A stretch of 64,000 nucleotides of DNA from a virus, in IMG/VR virus record IMGVR_UViG_3300046457_000118, positions 1-64,000 of that record; one strand, written 5' to 3'. The translations under genes were made by a program, and so were the position numbers. This document shows positions 57,525 through 64,000 of this stretch, in pieces; within the stretch, counting starts at the first letter, position 1, and each line of letters starts with the position of its first letter. The notes below the pieces were generated by a model. That model saw only the letters and a list, made by a program, of their open reading frames with translations. It searched no databases and was not told the origin of the DNA.

Positions 57525-57719
57525 ATGATGCTGATCTACGGTATCGTCGTCATTGCCATCATCGCAGGACTGTTCTTCGTGTCCATGCTGTTGTCGGCTG
57601 TGATGTCCGTGATCGGTGGTGTCATCGGTGCCGCCCTTGCGGGTGGTGCCGTGATAGCATGGATTTATCTCTGCTGGTGCGGTTACCGTGCCAACAGGAA
57701 AAAAGGTGTCCGCAGGTAA
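57525..57719 (+). CDS. Small membrane protein
   Basis: 64 residues. Two hydrophobic segments (about 3-27, YGIVVIAIIAGLFFVSMLLSAVM region, and 30-52) then a basic tail (RANRKKGVRR). Last gene of the plus-strand operon. No ribosome site is obvious, so it may be coupled to the previous gene (3-bp gap). Unknown. Confidence 0.65.
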   Translation: MMLIYGIVVIAIIAGLFFVSMLLSAVMSVIGGVIGAALAGGAVIAWIYLCWCGYRANRKKGVRR

Positions 57720-58050
57720 TTGCTGACCGTCACCCTCACGAAACGAGGGCAAACCTTTCAAATGGGTAGAGTAAAAATATCCCTCGGCATAAACGAGGGA
57801 CCACACAGAGAGGCTTTCTCGGATGCATAGGGGCATGCTCACATGTTCCCTTATAAGCCTGACACCTTGAAAGTCTCTCTGTGTGGTGACGTGCAATGCT
57901 GATGCACAGGCAGGCTCCCAGTTAATTCCTTTTCTGGCAGCTTGCTGTCGGTGGAGATGGATTTCCATGGGGGCCGACAAGCCGGATGAAGACAGCACCG
58001 GCCACCACTACATACCTGTTCCGGGAAGGATGGGTAAGCAGAAGAAGAAA
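57720..58050. ncRNA. Structured non-coding region, candidate RNA
   Basis: 330 bp with no credible gene. It holds, in order: CCCTC-7-GAGGG (57733-57749), CCCTCG-7-CGAGGG (57781-57799), then an 18-bp stem with one wobble (57801-57818 with 57869-57886) enclosing an 11-pair inner hairpin (57827-57854, loop CTCA, two-base bulge). Further on: TGTCGG...CCGACA (57946-57979) with inner ATGG/CCAT, and GCCGG...CCGGC (57981-58002). It ends at the bidirectional terminator. Transcription from the plus operon is likely, so an RNA is plausible. It could instead be a DNA site. Confidence 0.5.
57801..57886 (+). ncRNA. 86-base long imperfect hairpin, core of structured region
   Basis: Pairs CCACACAGAGAGGCTTTC with GAAAGTCTCTCTGTGTGG (17 Watson-Crick pairs and one G-T), then an inner arm ATAGGGGCATG / CATG-TT-CCCTTAT with loop CTCA. 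It is far more stable than the terminators nearby. It lies 81 bp past the last plus-strand gene. Confidence 0.55.
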
Positions 58051-58076
58051 GCCCCCTCACGGGGGCTTTTCTTTTT
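58047..58076. terminator. Bidirectional terminator
   Basis: AAAGCCCCC-TCAC-GGGGGCTTT flanked by A- and T-tracts (CTTTTT). It separates the plus operon and structured RNA from the end of the virion RNA polymerase gene. Confidence 0.9.
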
Positions 58077-61000
58077 AGTTGAAGGGCATCGTTACTGCCT
58101 TGTACGTGGCCAGCGTACCGATGGCTTGTGGGTAAGTGAACACACCAGCTTCAAGCGGGTTGTTACCCAGTCGATGGTAGAAGGAAGAATCCATCACCGT
58201 CGGCAGATGCTTGAAGTAGTGCGACAAGGCCACCAGTCCCAGAGCACGTCCCGGATTACCCCGGTGCAGTGCCAGCAGCACCTTCTGGATACGCAGGTAG
58301 TACTTGGTGAACCTCACGAAGCCCATGTCGTTCAGGTACTGGGTACGGCGATCCGTGGGCACGTCATAGAAGATGAATGCCTCGGATGCCAACGAGACGG
58401 CTTCCTCCTTTGACATCGGGTCTTTCTTCTTGGTCGTCATGTGCTGGTACAGCGTATAGCGACCAAGGAAGTCCGAGATTTGGGCAGCTTCCGACAGCAA
58501 CTGGTAGACATAAGTTTCATGGCCCATGTACAACTGGTTGGCCACCGACTTGACATCCGGATTGATCCAGCTAGTCAGTTGCTCCGTACGCTTGTTGAAC
58601 TTCGACTTGTACGAGTAGATGTCGTCATCCATCTCCACATCATCCACGATGGTCGGCATCAGGCCCGCTTGGATCAGTTCATGCATCGGGTTCCTTGCCA
58701 GTGCATCCTTCAGCTTGGCTACCCGAGCTTTATCCTCATTCACGTTGCCGGACGTTCCGGTGTCGAGCTTGGTCTGCAATGCGAACAGTTCAGCACTGTC
58801 ACGCTTGTAGGCGATAGCGCCACGGAATGCAATGCGGTGACTGCGGAAGATTTCCGTCAAAGGTACACCGAAGCCATACAACATAGAGATGTTCGAGGTC
58901 ATGTTGCCCATCAAAGTGGACAGGTTCTTCACGACCACGATGTCCTTGGCTTCCTTCACCAGCCACTGCCACATCTCTTCGACAGTACGCAGACGCACCA
59001 TTGCACGGGCTTCACGCGACTTGAAGTCTTCCGGATCAGCATGGTCGGACAGCATCTTGCCGGTACCGAGGAAACTCAACACATCCCCCATCAGCTTCTC
59101 CCAACCCTTGCGTGCTTCACGATCCTTCTTCAACACATCCGTGATCGACAGCTTACGGTAGCCGAAGGTCATGTCCAGCAGATCGATACGCACCTGCATG
59201 GCATCCGACTTCCACACTTCACGGATGGTCTGCTTGGCCGACTCAGGCAGTAGACGATAGATTTCACGCATCTCCGGATCAGCCGAACGCGGACCCACTT
59301 CGATGAATGAACGGGGACGCTCGTTGAACTCCTTACGGTACTGTTCATACAGCGTTTCCACCACCGTGCGGTTCTGTTTAGGCGTGCCTTCCTTGTCGTA
59401 GATCGAACCTGCCATCGTGCCCATCAGCTTGTCGAAACGGTTGTCCCGGTCAAGCACATTATCCTTCACGTCATTGGCCATCATGTAGCGGTAGTTGACC
59501 TTATCACCCTGTGGATTGATGACAGGTACAAGGTACTCTTCCGTCACCTTGTCCGGTTCAATCGGATGGGTGAACATACGCTGCACATCGTCTGCCACAT
59601 TCTGGCCGATCTGGTGCATCATTTCCGCGTTGTATAGTCCTTGATCGCTGAAGAAGTCCAGTACGCCGTTGTGCTTGGTCGTACCCTTGGTATTCATCGA
59701 GGTCAGCGACATGCTGCCGGTCAGGTATGGTTGCAGACCCGAGCCATGACGTGCCATCAGGTAGTTACCACCTGCTTCCGGATCAGCCTTGGCTGTTGCC
59801 AGCTTCATGCCTTGACCAAAGCCTTGATCACGCAAGTCATCGAGTTCATCCTTACTTGCCAGACGCAGTTCGACATAAGGGTTGTAGACCTCCGGCAGAT
59901 AGCCCTTCATCATCAGGGCTTCCTGATCCTTGAACAGACGTTCCTTCGAGTCGGCTTGCAGCTTCTCGTGCAGCTTCAGGGCCATCTCGACACCGTTGCC
60001 CTCATCCCGTGCCATCTCCTTGGCCATCAGTTCACTGGCCGTCGTCTTCTCATCGGCATTCGAGTAATGCAGGGCATACAGCGATGCCAGATGATCGATG
60101 GCCGGTTCGAAGCGCATGGCATCCTGTGGCATTGCCTGAGTTGTGCCATACAGGCGTGCGATGGCATGGGCATTTTGCATGGTGTTGGCGGCTCGTGCCT
60201 TGCCATTCACCATCTTGTAGCCCAGTGCCTTGGCTGCATTCACGTAGTACATCTGGTGCGGCGACGTAGCCAGTTCCTGCGTCACATCGACGATGGCTTG
60301 GGACAGCTTGGCTTGGTCATTCAGCAGGGCATGCAAGTCCTTCATGTCCGTGTAACGGGACATCAGGGACGCCATGTCGGTGCGCAGGAACACGTTGCTA
60401 ACGGCCTTCTTCATGTCGTCCGTCAGGTTCTTGCCCTCATCGCTGAAGGACTCGATCAGTACCTTCGAGGTACCGGCGATCAAGTCCTTGCGCTTGCCTT
60501 CAAACAGCTTGGCCATGCGCAGCAGATGCAGGAACACTCGGTTGCCATCATGGGCACCACGAATCTCGTTGATAGTGTTGGCGAACATGCCGTTACTGTA
60601 GTGGAAGTGCTGGTCACTGAAGTCCTGATACGCCTGGACCACATGGTCCAGGCGTTCCTTGACCGTAGCCGACACCAACGAGCCAGTCATCTTCAGGTAG
60701 CCGTTCTTGGCTTCCTTGAAGAACTTCGAGTTGGCCACCTCATCGACCTTGTTACGTGCACCCTTGGCCACCGAATTGAGCATACCTTCGATGGCATTGA
60801 CGGTCTGCGACTGTTCCACGTTCAGGCGGGCACGACGCTTGGCTTCGATCATCACAAGCTGGGTTGCCAGCGAGTCCAGCTTGCTGTCTGCCTGCTCGCC
60901 CATGCGGGTCTTGGTCCAGCGACCGACCACCCATTGCAGGGCTTCCTGCAACATCTGGTTCAGCTTACCCAGCAGGGTATCGGCAAACTGTTCGTCCGAC

Positions 61001-64000
61001 TTCAGCTTGGTCTTGAATTGCAGCAGGGCGTTGATCTTCGGATTAACCAAGCCAAGGGACACGAAGCGCGACAGATAGTCCGTATTCGGCGTCAGGGCAA
61101 ACAGGAAGTCATATTCATCCTGCGTCAGTCCAGTACCGATCTGATCCTTCAGCTTGTCACGGGCTTCCTCGTACAGCTTGCCGAGTTCCTTGAAGGCCAC
61201 GCTGGTCACGCCATCGGCTCCCGACAGGGCAGCACGCATGGTCACTTCCACCTGTTCCAGCACGAAGGCCACCTGCTCGTTACCTGCCAAGCCATGGGCC
61301 ACCGCATCCAGAGCGAATGGTGCCGTGCCATTGGTCTGGGCATTGGCCCAGATCGAGGCGGCACCCAGCGTACTGGTGCTCATGGCATCCTGACCGAAGG
61401 CACCGTAGATCGGGCTGAAGGTCTCGATCAGGCTGCTCAACAAGCCACGCAGACGGACATCATCTTGAGGCGACAATGGGTTGTTGGCGTTCTGCCCCAG
61501 TTCATTGTAGATGTCTGCCGTGGTATAACTCTGGGCCGGAGTAGCGTGCATCAAGGTCAGTTTGACACGCTCTGCCTCATTACCACGTGACTGTTCCATC
61601 AACCCAGAAACGTTGTAAATGAGGATCGACAATGCACGTTCTTTCGTGTCGGTGGCATCACCAAAGAACAACTTGGTCATGGCATTGGCAAACACTTTCA
61701 TGGCCTTGACCAAACGATTGCCACTAGTGCGAGACACCGGATACACGATCTGTTTCAGGAACTCTTGGAACTCCGGATTCGCCATGCCCCATGCGGTGAA
61801 CTCCTGCACATCCGTCAAAGCACCCTTAAACTTTTCGGCACCCGGATAGTTTTTCACGTAGGTCAGTAGGTCTTCAAGGTCTTTGATAATAGATTTACTA
61901 GCCTTCGAGACAGGTGAATCAATCTCATGCGAGATGGCAGCATGCACCAATTCATGCAGCACAGTCTCAATGTTCATACCACTCGATGCAAAACCATCAG
62001 ATTTTATGTACACATGGCTTTGCTGCCCTTTAGGTGCCAGTACGAACCAGCCGCATGCCTCTGAGTTTGGTAAGGAAAGCACTTCACCGGGATTGGTAGT
62101 AGGCGTAATCAGGTTGACGAACAGGTCTTCCGGCAGCACCTTGGCAAGCTGTTTTGCCAGCATATTGTTGACGCCAGTAGTGTTCTTGACCATATAGTCG
62201 ATGGCTTCTTTGCCTGACAACGTGGCCTTGTCAGCGAACATTTTTTGTACCACCGGGTCCACTGCTCGCCACGTCGATACACCAAGACGACCGAACGGCG
62301 TCAAGCCAGTGCCATCAAGCGAATTCATGATGCGAGCAGTCTGCTCGATCTTCTCTGCCGTGTCAGGCTTACCTACCACAGCAGCTACTGCTGCCATGTC
62401 GGCGCCCTTGGTTTCCATGGTCGGAGCGGCATCAGCCTCTTCCATCGGTGCCGTCTCCACTGCCTTGCCATCAGCGAAGTCACGGATGACATCGAATGCC
62501 TTGTGGGCTTCGTCGCTCATCTCGGTGACCACCGACTTGATATCGGCAAGTGCCTGTTCACGGACCGACTTCGGTACCTGATACTGGCCACTCTCCCATG
62601 TGTACTGGTCCACCACGCCAATCTTGGCGATGGTCGAGAGACGCACACGATCTGCATTCACGGCATTGGCGATGGCCATGGCACGGATACCGTTGACAGC
62701 TTCGGCCACCGACATATCCTGACGCTCCTTGGCTTTGACCTTGTTGCGTGCACCAACGACTTCCTTCCACTGGGCCACGATGGCATTCACATCGGCCTTG
62801 TCGATTTCGCCGTCTTGGATACGCTTGGCCAGATCGGCAGCGATCCGCTCCACCATGTTCAGGGCTTCACGGGCAGGCGAGAACTTCGACAGTGCCTGTA
62901 ACGTCGCACGGTTGATGGCCCCAGCTGCATTCGCCACTTCCAACACACCATGACCGATCTCGTCGTGCACGTTCAGGGCTTCCTGCACCGAGGCCAGAGC
63001 CGAGTGCATCAGGAACGAGTCGAGCGAGTGGATCAGGTAAGGCGTACCTGCCACACCCGGACTCGTCTCCACACGGTCCATGCCCTTCATGTGCAGGTTC
63101 TTGCTGGAACTGAAGGAGCCATCAGGATTGGCCTTGCCATTGACCACAGGCGAAGCCAAGGTGATCTGCGATTGCAGCATCGGGTCATCCGAAAGCTGGG
63201 TTTCCTGCTTGCCCATGTAGATACCATTGGCCAGATCACCACCCATCGAGTAGGCGGTATGGACCACTGGCAGCATGCCCGTCAGCTTCTCGCGCACAGC
63301 GTCTTCTTGTGCTGAGGTCAGGTCGGTACGGGGCTTCTTCTGCCCCTTGCCCGTTTCTTCGGTACCTCCGGTCTGCTCACGCCATGCCAGATGATCCTCT
63401 GCGATCAGGTCTTGAATAGCCTTCTTGCGTGCTGCCTTGTAGGCCACTTCGTACATGGCAAAGCCTGCCTGCACCGTACGGTTCAGGTCACCACGGCGTT
63501 CGATGAAGGTAGCGAAGTAGGACTCCATGGCCTGCTTGACTGGCTCACCCATGATGCCTCGGAAGGCTGCACGCAGCAGTTCCTCGCCATCCTTGGAGAT
63601 CGGATGGTTCATGAGTTCAGCAGCCTTGACGTTCGTGTCGAACGGCTGGATGTCACCCTGAGACTTCATCAACACATTCATGGCATTCACGAAGCCAGAC
63701 ACATCAGCAGGCTTGCCAGCGTGTTCTTCCTTGGCCAGCTTCTCGATCTTCTTGTAGATGCTGTCGATGAACTTGTTCTCCATCGCCGTGATGGAACCCT
63801 TCAGCGACGAACCGAAGGCGAATGCCGTCAGTGGCGTCTTCACCAGATCACGACCTTCCTTGGTCACATCCTGATTGGCATCCTGTAGCGTGCCGAGGAT
63901 CGACTGCATGGCATCGAACGGAGCATCCTTGGTGACGTGCTTCAGCAGGTAGGATGCCAAGTCCTGATACAAGTCCTTGCCCTTGGTGTCCTTGCGCCAC
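58075..64000 (-). CDS. Virion RNA polymerase (vRNAP), C-terminal 1974 residues, N4 gp50-like
   Basis: Open to the right edge (the frame continues W-R-K-D-T-K-G-K-D before the first internal TTG). Motif B RDLVKTPLTAFAFGSS at about 63852-63800 (Arg-x3-Lys) and motif C NVHDEIGHG with His-Asp at 62967-62962. Spacing between them, about 295 residues, is close to N4 (about 280). Motif A and the N-terminus lie outside the window. After the polymerase core come about 1600 residues of injected, virion-associated sequence including a zincin-like HELVHAAISHE motif at 61942-61956, long helical repeats and an amphipathic C-terminus. This polymerase is packaged and enters the cell to transcribe early genes from hairpin promoters. 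Confidence 0.92.
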   Translation of the reverse strand, partial: WRKDTKGKDLYQDLASYLLKHVTKDAPFDAMQSILGTLQDANQDVTKEGRDLVKTPLTAFAFGSSLKGSITAMENKFIDSIYKKIEKLAKEEHAGKPADVSGFVNAMNVLMKSQGDIQPFDTNVKAAELMNHPISKDGEELLRAAFRGIMGEPVKQAMESYFATFIERRGDLNRTVQAGFAMYEVAYKAARKKAIQDLIAEDHLAWREQTGGTEETGKGQKKPRTDLTSAQEDAVREKLTGMLPVVHTAYSMGGDLANGIYMGKQETQLSDDPMLQSQITLASPVVNGKANPDGSFSSSKNLHMKGMDRVETSPGVAGTPYLIHSLDSFLMHSALASVQEALNVHDEIGHGVLEVANAAGAINRATLQALSKFSPAREALNMVERIAADLAKRIQDGEIDKADVNAIVAQWKEVVGARNKVKAKERQDMSVAEAVNGIRAMAIANAVNADRVRLSTIAKIGVVDQYTWESGQYQVPKSVREQALADIKSVVTEMSDEAHKAFDVIRDFADGKAVETAPMEEADAAPTMETKGADMAAVAAVVGKPDTAEKIEQTARIMNSLDGTGLTPFGRLGVSTWRAVDPVVQKMFADKATLSGKEAIDYMVKNTTGVNNMLAKQLAKVLPEDLFVNLITPTTNPGEVLSLPNSEACGWFVLAPKGQQSHVYIKSDGFASSGMNIETVLHELVHAAISHEIDSPVSKASKSIIKDLEDLLTYVKNYPGAEKFKGALTDVQEFTAWGMANPEFQEFLKQIVYPVSRTSGNRLVKAMKVFANAMTKLFFGDATDTKERALSILIYNVSGLMEQSRGNEAERVKLTLMHATPAQSYTTADIYNELGQNANNPLSPQDDVRLRGLLSSLIETFSPIYGAFGQDAMSTSTLGAASIWANAQTNGTAPFALDAVAHGLAGNEQVAFVLEQVEVTMRAALSGADGVTSVAFKELGKLYEEARDKLKDQIGTGLTQDEYDFLFALTPNTDYLSRFVSLGLVNPKINALLQFKTKLKSDEQFADTLLGKLNQMLQEALQWVVGRWTKTRMGEQADSKLDSLATQLVMIEAKRRARLNVEQSQTVNAIEGMLNSVAKGARNKVDEVANSKFFKEAKNGYLKMTGSLVSATVKERLDHVVQAYQDFSDQHFHYSNGMFANTINEIRGAHDGNRVFLHLLRMAKLFEGKRKDLIAGTSKVLIESFSDEGKNLTDDMKKAVSNVFLRTDMASLMSRYTDMKDLHALLNDQAKLSQAIVDVTQELATSPHQMYYVNAAKALGYKMVNGKARAANTMQNAHAIARLYGTTQAMPQDAMRFEPAIDHLASLYALHYSNADEKTTASELMAKEMARDEGNGVEMALKLHEKLQADSKERLFKDQEALMMKGYLPEVYNPYVELRLASKDELDDLRDQGFGQGMKLATAKADPEAGGNYLMARHGSGLQPYLTGSMSLTSMNTKGTTKHNGVLDFFSDQGLYNAEMMHQIGQNVADDVQRMFTHPIEPDKVTEEYLVPVINPQGDKVNYRYMMANDVKDNVLDRDNRFDKLMGTMAGSIYDKEGTPKQNRTVVETLYEQYRKEFNERPRSFIEVGPRSADPEMREIYRLLPESAKQTIREVWKSDAMQVRIDLLDMTFGYRKLSITDVLKKDREARKGWEKLMGDVLSFLGTGKMLSDHADPEDFKSREARAMVRLRTVEEMWQWLVKEAKDIVVVKNLSTLMGNMTSNISMLYGFGVPLTEIFRSHRIAFRGAIAYKRDSAELFALQTKLDTGTSGNVNEDKARVAKLKDALARNPMHELIQAGLMPTIVDDVEMDDDIYSYKSKFNKRTEQLTSWINPDVKSVANQLYMGHETYVYQLLSEAAQISDFLGRYTLYQHMTTKKKDPMSKEEAVSLASEAFIFYDVPTDRRTQYLNDMGFVRFTKYYLRIQKVLLALHRGNPGRALGLVALSHYFKHLPTVMDSSFYHRLGNNPLEAGVFTYPQAIGTLATYKAVTMPFN
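61920..61980 (-). other. Zincin-like HExxH motif inside vRNAP
   Basis: Coding for VLHELVHAAISHEIDS: HExxH at 61942-61956 with a third His five residues on. Helix-like context and a later EFTAWG segment are compatible with a metallopeptidase-like domain in the C-terminal part of the virion polymerase. Whether it is active is unknown. Confidence 0.5.

Follow-up and report, generated by a model that had tools for sequence, protein, structure and literature searches.

A structured RNA at the end of the middle operon of an N4-like virus as a probable divergent member of a widespread phage RNA framework family

Introduction

STnc100 (Rfam family RF02076) is a small RNA (sRNA) of Gammaproteobacterial prophages in which a strand, here termed B, is followed by a hairpin, a cargo sequence, a second hairpin (H') and a strand C that pairs with B. 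PasD has been reported as a structural relative of STnc100; it alone among the Pas sRNAs is tied to STnc100, and placing the Pas sRNAs as a group in the same family is unsupported (PMC13192938). The DicF sRNA is processed by RNase III and RNase E, the end of its 72-nt form being made by RNase III (PMC5069750). GOLLD and ROOL are large structured phage RNAs, often located near tRNA islands, that make loop–loop contacts (PMC12286853). Stable non-tRNA RNAs are also known from the tRNA cluster of phage T4, namely rnaC and rnaD, the former of which ends in a T-arm. The hairpin promoters of the N4 virion RNA polymerase (vRNAP) have a stem of 5–7 bp and a 3-nt loop. STnc100 and DicF, reportedly together with the RNA work of Faubladier and Bouche (1994, by its title), represent that part of such RNAs which is already known from prophages.

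The RNA region described here lies near the end of a 64,000-nt stretch of viral DNA (positions 1–64,000 of IMG/VR record IMGVR_UViG_3300046457_000118), which is referred to as the window. The region shares with STnc100, the hosts of which are prophages, the order of strand B, hairpin, cargo, hairpin H' and strand C.

Results

A strongly folded gap between p64 and the vRNAP gene

The last gene of the middle operon, p64 (57525–57719, plus strand), was called as an ORF encoding a small apolar protein, for which searches of PHROG and Pfam gave no match. It ends immediately 5' of the RNA region and holds the same position in relatives. On the other side the vRNAP gene (58075–63972, minus strand; PHROG 2206) is convergent with the region. 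The first-pass annotation had described the intervening gap as geneless, and indeed positions 57720–58057 are free of credible genes, the overlapping ORFs being without a PHROG match. The RNA fold predicted for 57720–58080 reaches −159.3 kcal/mol, compared with −115.7 ± 6.2 kcal/mol for shuffled sequences (z = −7.1; none of 100 shuffles was as good), and the hairpin at 57795–57895 gives z = −5.7 when folded alone.

The five or more stem-loops annotated earlier are real; besides the long stem they occupy six plus-strand sites from 57733 to 58002, with a terminator hairpin beyond. The most 5' of them is a small extra hairpin (57733–57749; CCCTC-ACGAAAC-GAGGG), the loop of which also caps the hairpin preceding the last unit of an array in phage P1. 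Hairpin H (57780–57800; TCCCTCG-GCATAAA-CGAGGGA), taken from the fold, abuts a long stem, and such an abutting 5' hairpin is a feature of the family described below. The long stem had been reported as 18 bp with one wobble, capped by an arm of 11 pairs; it proves to be one pair longer, with 19 pairs including one G-U (57800–57818/57869–57887), and it closes a first cargo of 50 nt (57819–57868) that folds into an arm of 10–11 pairs and has no T-arm. A scan of the window for stems, in which G-U pairs and one mismatch were allowed, revealed two more distinct same-strand stems of 19 pairs elsewhere, both wobble-rich, and the stem at 57800–57818/57869–57887 was the only one with 18 pairs on both strands.

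The 5' side of this stem begins with strand A (ACCACACAG, 57800–57808), the first partner of strand B (CTGTGTGGTG, 57879–57888), and bases 57883–57888 of the latter are able to pair with strand C (CACCACTACA, 58003–58012), which is its second partner. Between B and C lie hairpin P3 (57891–57907; GTGCA-ATGCTGA-TGCAC), a second cargo (57908–57980; predicted fold −32.4 kcal/mol) made up of the stem-loops 57909–57946 and 57947–57978, and hairpin H' (57981–58002; GCCGG-ATGAAGACAGCA-CCGGC), the loop of which is complementary to that of P3. A hairpin (58048–58070) followed by a T-run forms a terminator, readable in both directions, at 58048–58076; it is the probable 3' end of the transcript, and terminator-like matches occur at the same place in relatives. 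Far from this region, the short sequence at 705–725 of the window (CGTGATGGTGACACCATCGAC) is a perfect palindrome; it looks like B joined directly to C, which may be chance.

The corresponding gap in close relatives

The RuvC-like protein encoded nearby was used as a query and gave 66 viral contigs. Relatives keep the gene order RuvC, p157-like, p64-like, gap, vRNAP, and their gaps range in length from ~20 to ~1150 nt. An H-NS-like gene (Pfam PF00816) makes up part of the gap in some of them, lying between p64 and the RNA region in several (for example, L007:6218–6523 and L010:6212–6517), and none is present at that place in the window. DNA similarity between the window gap and those of relatives was limited to terminator-like stretches, and several related phages have a terminator alone at this position. 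A search for nearer relatives based on vRNAP returned one match of 100% (L079), which yields no covariation because its contig ends just 86 bases past the match.

The gaps of relatives are mosaics built from common modules, and many hold stems of 19–22 bp that close differing structured loops, often immediately 3' of a small hairpin. The long stem alone was rejected as a signal because shuffled gaps of equal length often have one: a 15-bp stem was present in 13 of 31 shuffled gaps too. Long stems with an abutting 5' hairpin, found in 19 of 31 gaps versus 4 of 31 when shuffled, are therefore the better evidence. It had been stated that no N4-type element like that of the window was known; phages N4, G7C and 24-32N in fact have unannotated structured regions at the same place.

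Several other observations were made in these gaps. The 1.5-kb gap between N4 gp47 and gp48 (L081:1185–2703; EF056009, 32113–33631) is feature-free in its record and holds four tRNA genes (Asn, Ser, Thr and Pro) together with a number of long stems, T-arms being present in some of them. Structured modules from the G7C gap (L074:4959–6150) recur in unrelated T4-like and SU7-like phages (L082, L083, L084, L085 and L086), and a double T-arm module of contig L018 recurs in jumbo Klebsiella phages and in two Pseudomonas phages. Just 5' of the first unit in L007, L010, L014 and L015 there is a possible H-type pseudoknot (for example, GTCTTGC/GCAAGAC), the second stem of which seems to covary.

The A/B/C framework and its covariation

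Units in P1, HK620, SopranoGao, ep3, VLCpiS13b and CSP3 were used to read a common framework, with the order H, A, cargo, B, P3, cargo, H', C. Strands A and C are near copies of each other and each is complementary to B; in arrays, the C of one unit is the A of the next. It is this framework, and not the sequence, that is conserved among relatives. The pattern TGACA-N4-GGARAGAC-N5-CYWTCA, which covers the small hairpin and the start of the stem, occurs in at least 120 stretches in IMG/VR, and a slightly stricter pattern gave 13 matches in 84,980 prokaryote genomes, which is roughly estimated to be close to the chance level. Of 102 pattern copies, 99 form the four free hairpin pairs, and in 66 of the 102 the first nine stem bases have a perfect partner, G-U allowed, at most 330 nt away. 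A second, independent pattern, for the 3' flank, was similarly frequent, and at least 21 of its copies pointed again to the GARAGA hairpin. A downstream hairpin followed by a B-complementary strand was present in 68 of 111 units, compared with 8.4 for shuffled flanks and 18 for upstream flanks. When the domain was sought under looser conditions, most of the hits were false.

For the domain that runs from B to C, 36 examples were aligned with the window left out. In this alignment 98.3% of the cells are paired, two-sided changes were seen at 10 pairs and in 42 cells (4.3 and 5.9, respectively, in shuffles), and none of 500 shuffles reached any of the measures. H and A:B covary as well. The P3 loop GCTGA is complementary to the H' loop TCAGC in all 36 domains; beyond this complementarity, a loop–loop contact is supported by few changes, namely G-U changes and one compensated pair (GCGAT/ATCGC in L160), and permutation of the loop pairs is powerless because the loops barely vary. 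Covariation of the stems had been proposed as a check on the window region. It is found at the level of the family and not within the Schitoviridae alone, where the sequence changes too fast and several relatives have only a terminator.

In the inner stems, G-U pairs outnumber A-C combinations by 110 to 51 (p = 4 × 10−6). Units are co-directional with the upstream gene in a ratio of 75:31 and, less strongly, with the downstream gene (67:39). We regard it as highly likely that the framework unit, that of the window included, is an RNA of the sense strand.

The window RNA as a probable family member

A model, termed R1, was built from the 36 B-to-C domains of relatives, the window being excluded. 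Its best match in the 64 kb is at 57879–58012 and is full length (model positions 1–111), with 26.5 bits and an E-value of 2.2 × 10−5 that is rough, because calibration was short; typical members score 60–88 bits, compared with 26 for the window. A strict descriptor matches 57883–58008, where 0.03 matches are expected per strand, and matches once more on the opposite strand elsewhere in the window. In an independent blastn search the H'–C module of the window (57974–58012) matched Klebsiella phages that carry the unit.

All framework parts are present in the window, in diverged form. The B:C helix has six Watson–Crick pairs and closes P3 and H', the loop complementarity is retained as TGCTG (57897–57901) with CAGCA (57993–57997), and the long A:B stem has its abutting 5' hairpin (57780–57800) as in the family. 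The TGACA and GARAGA loop before A, and ACYATCA as A itself, are absent in the window, whose loop reads GCATAAA and whose strand A reads ACCACACAG; members from enterophages are without these motifs too, so they mark a subtype and not the family. Predicted energies differ little between the two forms of the window RNA, at −105.2 kcal/mol for A:B and −103.7 kcal/mol for B:C, the loop contact not being counted. Judged from sequence and predicted pairing, the window RNA is very probably a divergent member of a widespread phage family built on the A/B/C framework.

Distribution of the framework and its cargo

Similar sequence was found in at least 126 GenBank phage records, which include N4-like and P1-like phages, HK620, Ackermannviridae and BASEL phages, and nearly all of these copies are without annotation. 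Klebsiella phages also carry the unit, and similar sequence is present in 162 of 5,426 Escherichia coli genomes. The PHROGs near sampled units (primase, polymerase A, tape measure, CI repressor, ParB, RecE and terminase) are those of unlike phages. The P1 units, about four in number and unannotated, form an array between tRNA-Thr and tciA (L327:1411–2350, ~65.5–66.5 kb) with a T-arm in the first cargo, and R1 matches three units of the array. The HK620 unit (L328:1090–1300) is flanked by the late promoter pR' on one side and the annotated terminator tQ on the other, and should therefore be within the short late-leader transcript.

The cargo is highly variable, apart from some classes that are conserved in sequence. 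Of 124 units, 14 have a T-arm in their first cargo when the sense strand is read, and none does when the antisense strand is read; in seven of the 14 the distance to the outer helix equals one acceptor length exactly. The Rfam tRNA model has a 48-bit match in L110 that fits precisely between the strands of the outer stem, and units adjoin tRNA genes in P1 and in VLCpiS13b. Most cargos, that of the window included, are not tRNA-like, and ARAGORN and Rfam found no tRNA or tmRNA in the window. On another viral contig (L175:1176–1577) a permuted-type tmRNA called by ARAGORN stands beside framework units.

Comparison with described RNAs

An Rfam search, which had been suggested as a check, did not place the region in a family: at threshold there was no match in the window, in its relatives or in the enterophage units other than true tRNAs, one tRNA within a unit and DicF, and at loose E-values the window gave weak, mostly terminator-like matches. 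None of the papers searched contained the core sequences.

The STnc100 model scores 34–37 bits, against a cut-off of 47 bits, at the last P1 unit, the DicF locus and e14, and has no match in the window or its virus genome. R1 matches the same places, namely, for the latter two, the region directly 3' of DicF and the e14 prophage. The DicF and STnc100 loci are without the GGCTGA/TCAGC loop pair and thus form a sister subtype. The Rfam model RF00039 spans only the 52-nt DicF sRNA, and neither this core sequence nor its fold was matched in the window. In the DicF locus the B:C duplex is 20 bp long (688–707/818–837 of that locus), and the published end of 72-nt DicF would fall at 699, inside the duplex; no other experimental result than this RNase III end bears on the workings of the framework. 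It is B:C that forms the long duplex in the DicF locus, whereas in the window it is A:B. The relation to DicF and STnc100, together with the family membership of the window RNA, suggests that N4-type, P1 and lambdoid phages share one RNA framework with changing inserts.

The larger phage RNAs compare less closely. The likeness to GOLLD and ROOL lies in loop–loop contacts and the proximity of tRNAs; the window unit is far smaller and has other conserved parts, and the Rfam covariance models of GOLLD and ROOL gave no match in the window. R1 has no match in the T4 rnaC/rnaD region, although rnaC and rnaD are similar in being stable RNAs of a phage tRNA cluster. The window hairpins were rejected as vRNAP promoters of the N4 kind, since their loops are longer than 3 nt. 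New with respect to the described RNAs are the breadth of the family, the proposed switch of strand B between its partners, the putative contact of the loops and the cargo that resembles tRNA.

Discussion

The first-pass annotation had favoured a plus-strand, processed 3' RNA, a view which is strengthened by the compensatory changes in the family, the excess of G-U over A-C, the co-orientation with genes and the relation to DicF and STnc100. On balance, the region is best read as a plus-strand structured RNA of ~230 bases (~57780–58014) at the 3' end of the middle operon, a member of the framework family that would be cut by RNase III. By analogy with the DicF locus, such processing of the window RNA is itself slightly more probable than its absence. 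Given the near-equal predicted energies of the two forms, a sequence of A:B pairing, exchange and then cutting is proposed. The nascent transcript would form A:B first, and once C has been made strand B may switch from A:B to B:C. The domain closed in this way would allow the P3 loop to pair with that of H'. RNase III would then cut the long duplex to give compact, stable, capped small RNAs upstream of the terminator, freed from the mRNA. That the freed cargo goes on to act in trans is a tentative suggestion, with the odds somewhat against it, and titration of a host factor by the window RNA is possible.

The unit could instead be only a cis-acting module for 3' processing or stability, in which the duplexes serve as RNase III sites and as protective caps for the middle mRNA, and the cargo has no separate function. 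The position at the end of the operon ahead of a terminator, the RNase III end in the DicF member, the limitless variation of the cargo and the sufficiency of a terminator alone in some relatives are all consistent with this; however, arrays of units, tRNA-like cargo and sequence-conserved cargo classes exceed what a processing site needs, and DicF is a functional sRNA, so that this explanation is a serious one but unlikely. A further reading, which we consider improbable, is that the framework presents decoys: mimics, of tRNA or of something else, that would capture host tRNA enzymes, RNases or defence nucleases. It would account for the T-arms on the sense strand, several of them in tRNA geometry, for the tRNA match inside one unit and for the tRNA genes adjoining units in P1 and VLCpiS13b, but the majority of cargos, including those of the window, do not look like tRNAs.

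Explanations that dispense with an RNA fare worse. If the hairpins acted as DNA in a mobile cassette or recombination site, the near-identical direct repeats A and C would serve in cassette exchange, and the swapping of cargo at fixed junctions across unrelated phages would follow; the one-strand G-U excess, the co-orientation and the tRNA-like cargo nevertheless argue against this, no common recombinase was seen, and recombination between repeats may explain the mosaic without being its function, which makes it very unlikely that this is what the unit is for. A replication or packaging site, another of the roles raised at first, would suit the strong structure and the adjoining replication genes, but is scarcely credible for an element that is missing or reduced to a terminator in relatives and whose framework spans phages with different replication and packaging genes. 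Chance structure or a plain terminator region might be suspected from the lack of sequence conservation in the nearest relatives and from the frequency of long stems in shuffled gaps; against a fold z-score of −7.1, the R1 match and the low expectation for the descriptor, the likelihood of this is negligible.

The preferred reading, a processed plus-strand RNA of the framework family, can be extended. Speculatively, and with a low probability, an exchangeable, bistable A/B/C clamp with a loop contact may be used by unrelated lytic and temperate phages to display fast-changing cargo, for example tRNA mimics, against host factors or defences, with DicF and STnc100 as offshoots. The N4-like gap, the P1 array, the HK620 late leader and the DicF/STnc100 loci are united here in one testable RNA family, for which pairing of B with either A or C, the loop contact and the swapped inserts give clear predictions in carriers that include P1, HK620 and the BASEL phages Bas78 and Bas80, which are readily grown. 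If the inserts do work in trans, a common type of phage RNA with regulatory or counter-defence roles would have been overlooked because annotation pipelines are blind there.
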